Assembly (NCBI GenBank): GCA_021827665.1
Contig: JAKAUR010000008.1
Location: forward strand, 1 to 58,321
Reading direction: 5' to 3'
Source: Microcaldota archaeon
GTDB lineage: Archaea; Micrarchaeota; Micrarchaeia; Micrarchaeales; Micrarchaeaceae
Length of the DNA: 58,321 nt
The position numbers were made by a program, and so were the translations under genes. Under the pieces are notes generated by a model. The model made no database searches, was not told where the DNA came from, and saw nothing but the letters and a program-made list of their open reading frames with translations. Below, in pieces: positions 54,940-58,321 of the stretch (position 1 is the stretch's first letter; each line of letters opens with the position of its first letter).

Positions 54940-56343
54940 GTGGTATCGATGTTTGAAATTCTGAATTTTGCCATCCCGATTCTTCTCGTAGCTCTTATAG
55001 CCTCCGGCCTCGCTACCGCCCTGCACAAAAACAAAAGGCTGTCGTTCTTTTCGAATACGATAATACTGTTATTGATTCTGGCTTTCGGGATATACTATTC
55101 CGTTTTTTCGATATCGTTCAACGTGGTTTCACTCTACAACGTTTATCCATTTTCGTCGTTCCTTTTGGTGCTGTTTCCCCTGGCTTTGCTCATAGTCAAC
55201 GCCGCAGCCATGCATCTCGATGAAAAATACGTGAAATTCGGAACCATGCTTCCGCTGCTTACCGTAGGCATACTGTCTGTTGGCATGGCGGCATCGCTCC
55301 TGGCAATAATAGTTTCAATAGAGCTCATGACTGTCCCGACGATACTCCTTATAGCATTCAAAGGGAAGCAGTTTGCCGAACCTGCGACGAAACTCTTCCT
55401 TATGGCTGCAATATCCATATCGGTACTCGCGTTCGCCATAACGCTTGTTTTCCCATATGATTCTAATCTGTCGCTCTCCCAGGCAGCATCGGGCAGCATA
55501 GGCTCACAATATTTCCTTATACTGGCTCTCGCACTGCTGATAGCATCGCTAGGCACCGAAGCAGCGCTATTCCCGTTTGATCTTTGGATACCGGACGTTT
55601 ATCAGGGGTCCCCGCACAGCGTAAGCCCGCTTCTGGCCGGAATAAACAAGAAAGTGGCATTCGTCGCCCTGATAGAAATAGCGTTCGTTGTGTTTTCTGG
55701 TCAAAAGGCGGAAATATCCCTTATATTCGAAGTGCTGGCCATACTTACAATGTTCTTCGGCAACCTCGGGGCAATGGTGCAGACAAACGTCAAGCGCATG
55801 CTGGCATATTCATCTATATCGCAGGCCGGATATATAATGGTCGGTCTCGCAGCGTTTTCTGTCTTCGGACTTGAAGCTTCCCTTTTCCAGATATTTGCGC
55901 ATTCGTTCATGATAATAGGTGCTTTTGTCCTAGCAGGATTCCTATCGATGGAGGGGCTCAACAGCATAAACGACTACTCTGGCTTGTACAAGAGGAGCGG
56001 TTTTCTTGCATTTTCGCTTACCATAATGATGCTGTCCATGGCTGGCATACCGGTTCTTATAGGCTTTGTTGGTAAGTTTCTGCTGTTCTCCAGCGCAATA
56101 AGCTCTGGATTGATTGCCCTGGCATTCATAGGCGTAATAAACAGTTTCCTCTCAATATACTATTATGGAAGGCTGATAAGCAACGTCTATTCCAGCAGAT
56201 CGCACAAGACCATGCACGTGCCCAAGGCAATATACCTGCCAATACTGGCTACGGTAGTAATAATAATCGTTTTCGGCGTATATCCGACGCCACTGATGTA
56301 CCTTGCACATTCTGCGGCTTCTTCATTGTTCTCGATCATTTGA
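54940..56343 (+). CDS. nuoN: Respiratory complex I subunit N
   Basis: FPFDLWIPDVYQGSPHSVSPLLAGINKKVAFVAL; VKRMLAYSSISQAGYIMVG. Confidence 0.93.
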   Translation: MVSMFEILNFAIPILLVALIASGLATALHKNKRLSFFSNTIILLLILAFGIYYSVFSISFNVVSLYNVYPFSSFLLVLFPLALLIVNAAAMHLDEKYVKFGTMLPLLTVGILSVGMAASLLAIIVSIELMTVPTILLIAFKGKQFAEPATKLFLMAAISISVLAFAITLVFPYDSNLSLSQAASGSIGSQYFLILALALLIASLGTEAALFPFDLWIPDVYQGSPHSVSPLLAGINKKVAFVALIEIAFVVFSGQKAEISLIFEVLAILTMFFGNLGAMVQTNVKRMLAYSSISQAGYIMVGLAAFSVFGLEASLFQIFAHSFMIIGAFVLAGFLSMEGLNSINDYSGLYKRSGFLAFSLTIMMLSMAGIPVLIGFVGKFLLFSSAISSGLIALAFIGVINSFLSIYYYGRLISNVYSSRSHKTMHVPKAIYLPILATVVIIIVFGVYPTPLMYLAHSAASSLFSII

Positions 56344-57442
56344 CTAATCTGCGCAGGAACAGGCGCTTAAGCATGAGCGTAGGACTGTCCATGTCTCCGT
56401 GCTTGGAGAAAAAGCTCTCTGCTCCGAGCGCCTTGGCAATGCCTATGAACCTTTCCATGTGCGCTTCGCTTACCTTTGAATAATAATCGTGCAGCATGGC
56501 ATGCATCTTCAGGTCAGTGCCGTAAGATCTCCTCCAGTCCTTGTCATAAAGCGAAAGCTTCCTGTCTTCCTTGAGGTGGAGGTATATGCTTCTAGCTGCT
56601 ACTTTCGCGCACGCTATCCCGAATATTATGCCTCCTCCTGTTGTTGCCTTCGTCTGGCCCGCTGCATCCCCTACCAAAATTACGTTGCCCTCTGCGGTTT
56701 TCGCCCTGCTTGAAACCGGTATTATGCTTGCGAGGCCCTTGACAAGTTCCGCATTGCCTATGACGCTTTTTACGCCCTCTGTCTCTGCAAACAAGTCAAA
56801 TGCCATTACACTGTGTTTTTTCACCCTGTCCGTTATGCCTATGCCAAGCTCTGCAACGGAATCCGAATACGGGGCAATCCAGCCGAAGAACCCCTGGGCA
56901 TATTTTTTCGAGAAATAAAGGTCCACCATGCTCCTATCGCCTATTTTGGCATTCTTGTATTCTGCCTTGTACGTTAAAACGAAGTTCTCTATTTGCGGGA
57001 AAGAAAATGCCCTCGCCACGCTTGACACTGCGCCGTCCGCTCCGACTATTATGGTGTTGCCATCGTCAAAATCACGTATCTGCTCCAAACTAAGCCTGCT
57101 GCCGAGTTTTATGTCCACGCCTGCCTCGACTGCGCTCCTGTAATTAATCTCTGCAAGCTTTCCCCTGTCAAGGACGTATGCCTGCACCTTTTCAGTGCTT
57201 ACCTTGAGCGTCTGCCTACCGAAATGAAGCCTTGCGCCATTGAGGGTGTTCACTATGCTCTCCTTATACTCTATGCCGCTGAGCTCGAGGCCCCTCTTGG
57301 AAAGTATGCCAGAAGCTTTTTCAGACCCTTCGGCAACGCTCTTTTTCCCGTCATAGACCGTTACATCAAGACCGTAACCAGTAAGCTCCTTGGCCATAGC
57401 CAGGCCAATTATGCCGGCACCTACTATAACTACTCTTTTCAA
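56336..57442 (-). CDS. FAD-dependent geranylgeranyl reductase family protein
   Basis: VVIVGAGIIGLAMAKEL; GNVILVGDAAGQTKATTGGGI. Confidence 0.88.
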   Translation of the reverse strand: MKRVVIVGAGIIGLAMAKELTGYGLDVTVYDGKKSVAEGSEKASGILSKRGLELSGIEYKESIVNTLNGARLHFGRQTLKVSTEKVQAYVLDRGKLAEINYRSAVEAGVDIKLGSRLSLEQIRDFDDGNTIIVGADGAVSSVARAFSFPQIENFVLTYKAEYKNAKIGDRSMVDLYFSKKYAQGFFGWIAPYSDSVAELGIGITDRVKKHSVMAFDLFAETEGVKSVIGNAELVKGLASIIPVSSRAKTAEGNVILVGDAAGQTKATTGGGIIFGIACAKVAARSIYLHLKEDRKLSLYDKDWRRSYGTDLKMHAMLHDYYSKVSEAHMERFIGIAKALGAESFFSKHGDMDSPTLMLKRLFLRRLVK

Positions 57443-57497
57443 CCGAAACGCCTCTGCGGTATTTATAGCTTTCTATTTAAACTTATTATTAACTGCG

Positions 57498-57862
57498 GTG
57501 GTTCAACGCCAAACAAGAAAAGCACAAAAAAAAGCGATACAAAACCGGCAGGCGCCCAAACAGGAAGCCTGGAATCTCCTAAAATATCCATTTATAACAT
57601 AGTCGTCAGTGCTGATCTTCATGCTGTCGTGGACCTTTACGCCTTATCGAAGGAGGTAAAGGCCGTGGATTATGAGCCTGAGCAGTTTCCCGGGGCCATA
57701 TTCAAAATATCAGAGTCCAGGACTGTCATACTGTTCAAGAACGGCAAAATGATCTGCACCGGAGCGAGGACCGAACCTGAGGTCAAGAGCATACTCGAAT
57801 ACGTTGCAAAAGTAATGTCAAAATACGTGATTTCACTGAATCCTCCGGAAAAGGAAAAGTGA
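57498..57862 (+). CDS. Single-repeat (half-length) TATA-binding-protein-like gene, needs a -1 shift or one extra A at an A8 tract
   Basis: ISIYNIVVSADLHAVVDLYALSKEVKAVDYEPEQFPGAIFKISESRTVILFKNGKMICTGARTEPEVKSILEYVAKVM then short tail and stop; GTG at 57498 in a different frame. Confidence 0.75.
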
Positions 57863-57871
57863 ATTCCTAAA

Positions 57872-58321
57872 TCAGGATTTCGAGACCAATTTAAGTTCCT
57901 TGTCGAATTCCCTGAAGAAATGCCCCCAAGAATAGTTTTTGATTACGTGTTTTCTTCCTTCCCTGCCCATCCTTGAGGCAAAATCCTGATCCTTAGATAT
58001 TTTCAACATTGCGTTGCACATGGAATGCTCGTCATTGACTAGGTAGCCGGTCTTGCCGTCTATCACGGTCTCTTTTGGTCCCCCTTGGTTGAGAGCTATG
58101 ACTGGCTTGGAGCTTGCCATCGCCTCAAGCGGTACGAGCCCGTAGTCTTCGTTCATGGGAGGGTACAGAACGGCCGTGGCGCCTGAGTAAGCATTCCTGA
58201 ACTCTTCCTCGTCAACGTTAGTCATTATTGAAATATCCTTCCTGCCTTTTACCATCTTGGCTATGCGGTTGTAATAATCCTGATAAAAGGCGTCCTTTGA
58301 CACTGCGCCCATGAGTACGAG
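57872..58321 (-). CDS. Glycosyltransferase family 1/4, C-terminal part, runs off window
   Basis: YSGATAVLYPPMNEDYGLVPLEAMASSKPVIALNQGGPKETV; frame open to window edge. Confidence 0.93.
   Translation of the reverse strand, partial: LVLMGAVSKDAFYQDYYNRIAKMVKGRKDISIMTNVDEEEFRNAYSGATAVLYPPMNEDYGLVPLEAMASSKPVIALNQGGPKETVIDGKTGYLVNDEHSMCNAMLKISKDQDFASRMGREGRKHVIKNYSWGHFFREFDKELKLVSKS

Follow-up and report, generated by a model that had tools for sequence, protein, structure and literature searches.

The window analysed here, a stretch of 58,321 nucleotides, comes from an archaeal genome of the genus Micrarchaeum (Micrarchaeaceae; 852 kb, 87% complete). Near its end, on the forward strand, lies an open reading frame that matches the TATA-binding protein (TBP) profile PF00352 and encodes a one-lobe TBP of 118 residues, TBP-A (57506–57862, with a probable ACG start). 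TBP, which marks gene starts, is a pseudo-symmetric two-lobed protein thought to be descended from a dimer of half-size chains. On one side TBP-A is flanked by a divergent ORF for a FAD-dependent geranylgeranyl-reductase-like protein (56336–57442, reverse strand), a syntenic neighbor outside the system, and on the other by a convergent glycosyltransferase ORF cut by the window end (57872–58321, reverse strand). TBP-A ends in NPPEKEK, followed by its stop at 57862. Since ORFs bound the locus on both sides, with a start at 57442 and an end at 57872, a second repeat cannot fit there, in line with the original prediction that none could be accommodated downstream. A TATA-like element, TATTTATA (57460–57467, forward strand), is the probable promoter, and TATTTAAA (57474–57481) is a second candidate; both were identified from the sequence, and TBP-A orthologs keep a TATA-like element roughly 40–48 nt upstream of the ACG.

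The gene had been predicted to begin at 57498, which does not hold: the GTG found there lies in another frame, and no ATG, GTG, or TTG occurs in frame nearby. Judging from its conserved position and the Shine-Dalgarno sequence of the orthologs, the ACG at 57506 is most likely the start. It is preceded by a Shine-Dalgarno-like GGTGGT (57497–57502, forward strand), conserved as GGTG[AGT]T in the orthologs of the window's family, f1. ACG is the only sensible start in 53 of the 83 scored genes of this type (type A) and almost always has GGTG[AGT]T at −9 to −4 before it; the combination is conserved in the window (57497–57508) and at loci L003–L082, L157, L163, and L168. In at least 12 type-A genes the ACG comes immediately after an in-frame stop, a canonical start is absent from the scanned frame in about 22 of the ACG-type ones, and A/P/S-K-rich tails come after the ACG. 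Most type-A genes of the sister family, f2, have ATG at the same place, and at least eight changes of start codon are required on the type-A tree. A programmed frameshift leading from GTG 57498 through an A8 run was rejected because the ACG and the reading frame of the N terminus are retained in the orthologs, in some of them with an in-frame stop directly before the ACG. No excess of Shine-Dalgarno-preceded ACG as a general start was seen in 400 kb of the congener G264, and the literature searched yielded no paper about ACG starts in archaea. The ACG start possibly provides translational control of the TBP-A level.

The TBP lobe itself (57584–57826, forward strand), assigned by profile match, AlphaFold, and Foldseek, contains the phenylalanines of EQFPG and ILF and the glutamates of YEPE. 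Its match to PF00352 is significant, as anticipated, at 73 bits (E = 9.5e-21; cut-off 22.9 bits) and covers profile positions 2–85 of 85; neither DUF3378 nor a nuclease domain was detected in the protein, only PF00352. AlphaFold models the window protein as one TBP lobe with a core pLDDT of 93–96, and the best 44 PDB matches of this model in Foldseek are all TBPs, mostly at 1.5–2 Å over about 80–88 residues. The segment YEPEQFPGA is invariant in 57 half-TBPs, as are V33, D43, L44, F77, K78, G80, I83, C84, and G86. In TBP, a pair of phenylalanines intercalates DNA; among the 57, the intercalating F61 and F77, which are the EQFPG and ILF phenylalanines already suspected to be conserved, and the contact residue V33 never vary, and N31 is nearly invariant. 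E57 and E59, the two acidic residues of loop L3 (YEPE) that bind TFB, are likewise invariant. Two glutamates of TBP contact an arginine and a threonine of TFB (PMC7221094).

TBP-A is under very strong purifying selection, with dN/dS values of 0.005–0.016 against four relatives with finite dS (dS is saturated against L006). These values, around 0.01, rule out a pseudogene. An assembly break that removed a second lobe is ruled out by the closed genome of the congener and by single-contig genomes. With a single PF00352 lobe, bounding ORFs, conservation, and intact contact residues, TBP-A can be accepted as a half-length TBP in the form of a complete gene. No viral source for the lobe was found among the viral contigs searched; nine IMG/VR contigs (L252–L260) have matches over nearly all of a two-lobe TBP, at 31–49% identity to an archaeal query.

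A PF00352 search of the source genome yielded two lone lobes only, TBP-A and, on a different contig, TBP-B (C27:1632–1877), and no two-lobe TBP. The closed genome of G264 (NZ_CP060530.1; 989,838 bp) likewise contains just two matches, both lone lobes, at 156 and 787 kb, and its TBP-A ortholog has the same gene layout as the window. Two tandem lobes in one polypeptide are absent in TBP-A, in TBP-B, in G264, and in G124, an f2 genome on a single contig. The half form is thus conserved in relatives, and nothing that would have refuted the original prediction (a full TBP elsewhere, decay of this copy, or a broken assembly) was encountered. TFB is encoded in the source genome by a single ordinary gene, whose product begins with a Zn-ribbon-like segment and contains two cyclin repeats.

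We surveyed 303 Micrarchaeota genomes with PF00352; no other DPANN phylum was included. One-lobe TBPs alone occur in 16 families, and two-lobe TBPs in 11. Exactly two one-lobe genes are present in 29 of the 33 f1 genomes that are at least 90% complete. At the same completeness, f2 has one half-TBP in 11 of 19 genomes and two in 8, and the sole half-TBP of many near-complete f2 genomes is B-type; G124 has exactly one. Families f14–f16 and f18–f28 also have one-lobe TBPs, mostly from one gene, with two or three in some f15 genomes. In f3–f13, both lobes lie in one frame of ~190–260 residues, as judged from ORFs for f3, f4, f6, and f13 and from match coordinates for the others. The single genomes of f17 and f29 gave no PF00352 match. 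The metagenome-assembled genomes are not complete, and PF00352 could miss a second lobe that is very divergent and encoded elsewhere. Half-TBPs fall below the cut-offs of all the NCBIfam archaeal TBP models (NF001592–NF001601), which may explain why they escaped notice; the window protein reaches no more than 80 bits, versus cut-offs of 181–347.

Several individual genomes deserve comment. The f15 paralogs, two or three per genome, are L212–L214 (G090), L245 (G094), and L246–L247 (G093), and two of them sit near each other in G094. G242 has a weak third TBP-like lobe (C3:8789–9031, L391; 40.9 bits) besides two normal halves. The f3 genome G010 has a single-lobe TBP (L242/L365) within a two-lobe family, and this lobe groups with C lobes, which shows a recent independent return to one lobe. 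The two-lobe TBP on contig C43 of G256 (L203) was not accepted as native: it is of the FSSGK type of other archaea, and the genome also has two half-TBPs. It probably came into the bin with host DNA or was acquired by transfer. The apparent second matches of G273 and G274 and the third of G065 are noise below threshold, and the single lobe of G058 is a two-lobe gene cut at a contig end.

Promoters were analyzed in G124 (56% GC), where the half-TBP is the only one. A motif search of upstream regions in 400 kb recovered an 8-bp TWTAWWWA element preceded by an AA BRE, with a log-likelihood of 164 versus 46 for shuffled sequence. TATA-like hexamers are most frequent 25–40 bp ahead of start codons; for most tRNAs, an A+T-rich box occupies a similar position. 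Similar motifs were found in G264 and in the two-lobe genome G003. That a full-length TATA box is served by a one-lobe TBP suggests two lobes per site. The palindromic character of the TATA element cannot be taken as proof of a homodimer: the motif is equally near-palindromic in a two-lobe genome, so its symmetry does not discriminate. Conceivably, a single half-TBP chain could suffice if TFB provided the remaining hold on the promoter, for the lobe is complete and its TFB contact site is kept; however, the promoters of a one-gene genome keep the full 8-bp TATA element, and all intercalation residues are kept as well, making this monomeric mode very improbable.

As the most economical interpretation, we consider it highly likely that two lobes, encoded by one gene or by the A and B paralogs, pair noncovalently into a saddle, dimerization and DNA binding both being inferred. 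A saddle of two one-lobe chains would bind the 8-bp TATA box, each lobe would intercalate two phenylalanines, and TFB would grip the saddle through the YEPE stirrup, with its contact to the BRE setting the direction of transcription; the TFB–BRE interaction can supply this direction (PMC7289017). What we observe is that the genes encode one lobe, that a two-lobe TBP is absent, that the lobe is conserved, has the TBP fold in its model, and keeps its contact residues, that TFB is ordinary, and that a one-gene genome has BRE–TATA promoters; for a saddle on the 8-bp TATA box, the support is only indirect, namely the 8-bp TATA and BRE in a sole-half-TBP genome, without binding data. In one-gene lineages the saddle would be a homodimer, and there homodimerization is nearly forced, though as an inference in the absence of dimer data. 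For the source genome, homodimerization as originally proposed is a reasonable inference that has to be qualified, because two half-TBP genes are present and a heterodimer is possible. In f1, with both genes kept, an A–B heterodimer or mixed dimers would be likely.

How the two genes of the source genome share the work can be approached from their history. TBP-A and TBP-B share about 48% identity and belong to separate clades older than the f1/f2 split, and a long stem branch leads to type A in the lobe tree, TBP-A being the derived paralog. Together with the retention of both paralogs in those 29 of 33 near-complete f1 genomes, each of these features speaks for an obligate A–B heterodimer, an asymmetric TBP re-invented from two genes, to which we give slightly less than an even chance. 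The B-type gene alone in many near-complete f2 genomes indicates, however, that B alone suffices there, and both proteins retain the residues that contact DNA and TFB and show no obvious division of labor. Alternatively, a TBP-B homodimer may do the housekeeping, with TBP-A as a specialized or regulatory half-TBP, comparable to the additional TBPs of haloarchaea, held at a low level through its ACG (expression being inferred). Type-B or sole halves and two-lobe TBPs are both divergent from rpl21e in many loci, and, as both adjoin rpl21e, are positional orthologs; B is thus at the ancestral TBP locus and A at a new one, with the geranylgeranyl-reductase-like gene, found by motif, beside type A in 62 of 88 loci. 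This assignment is further favored by the dispensability of A in f2 lineages and by its conserved non-AUG start in most scored orthologs, but the very low dN/dS and near-universal retention in f1 favor a core role for A, and we regard it as no more than a tentative possibility.

In lobe trees, which did not include other DPANN phyla, the Micrarchaeota lobes, whether half, N, or C, form one clade versus the lobes of other archaea (99–100/97). Topology tests reject grouping the N lobes with other archaeal N lobes (p-AU 0.005) and the C lobes with C lobes (0.011); a single re-duplication (0.38) and an affinity of all Micrarchaeota lobes to C lobes (0.195) are not rejected. The N and C lobes of one two-lobe TBP are 49–80% identical in Micrarchaeota versus 41–56% in three other archaea. 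Lobe-by-lobe orthology being rejected and the lobes forming one clade, the phylum probably had a one-lobe TBP at some stage and duplicated the lobe anew afterwards, which we favor over concerted evolution. A tree of RpoB′ rooted with Thermococcus and Sulfolobus has f22–f28, all one-lobe, as its first-branching clade; parsimony on it requires four changes, or five with the outgroup, and does not choose a direction. As a separate observation, RNA polymerase subunit B looks split, with a ~610-residue RpoB′ frame, in nearly all Micrarchaeota sampled (L321–L359); in G275 (L341), unlike other RpoB′ loci, RpoB′ lies within an open frame of 1111 residues.

A rival account posits a normal two-lobe ancestor whose lobes were homogenized by gene conversion, with half-TBPs arising by repeated lobe loss. 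It draws support from the clustering of N and C lobes together in some f3 genomes, from the recent single-lobe return in G010, and from the indecision of RpoB′ parsimony. Yet it needs concerted evolution throughout the phylum before the families split, and the first-branching clade of the RpoB′ tree is wholly one-lobe; we see it as possible, with doubt. To a fuller scenario we assign even odds: a Micrarchaeota ancestor with a one-lobe homodimeric TBP, later tandem re-duplication, and, in f1, a half copy at a distant locus with an ACG start, possibly heterodimeric. Deep placement of the lobes is weak because only ~88 columns and few outgroups are available. The half form has a long history in the phylum, and descent from an N lobe, a C lobe, or a pre-duplication protein cannot be distinguished from the data.

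The half-TBPs share lobe fold and sequence family with archaeal and eukaryotic TBPs (Sulfolobus acidocaldarius, 1mp9; Pyrococcus woesei, 1ais), as well as the intercalating phenylalanines, YEPE, the partner TFB, and BRE–TATA promoters, but those proteins have two covalently joined lobes per chain. The two-lobe TBPs of f3–f13 have in common with them the lobe clade, the rpl21e locus where visible, and the FPGAI/FKNGK signature; they differ in having the lobes fused in one protein. Bacterial RNase HIII (DUF3378) likewise has one lobe of the helix-grip/TBP superfamily per chain; unlike the half-TBP, it is fused to a nuclease and is not a promoter factor. The RNase HIII lobe lacks the TFB-binding glutamates, and single TBP lobes have been placed in bacteria (PMC7221094). 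Haloarchaea, like the source genome, have several TBP paralogs, but in haloarchaea each copy typically has two lobes (three were checked). Surveys of DPANN simply record the presence of TBP, and the open-access literature that we searched on archaeal and DPANN TBP and on TBP evolution contains no description of an archaeal single-lobe TBP, in agreement with the original prediction; novelty remains provisional.

With living organisms whose transcription relies on a half-size TBP, the inferred half-size ancestor would become testable, and the fused form in sister families offers a before-and-after comparison. If the half form derives from neither an N nor a C lobe, it would represent a surviving form of the TBP that preceded the duplication. 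A half-size TBP would also show that the covalency and the asymmetry of the lobes are dispensable, in which case promoter direction would have to come from TFB and the BRE alone.
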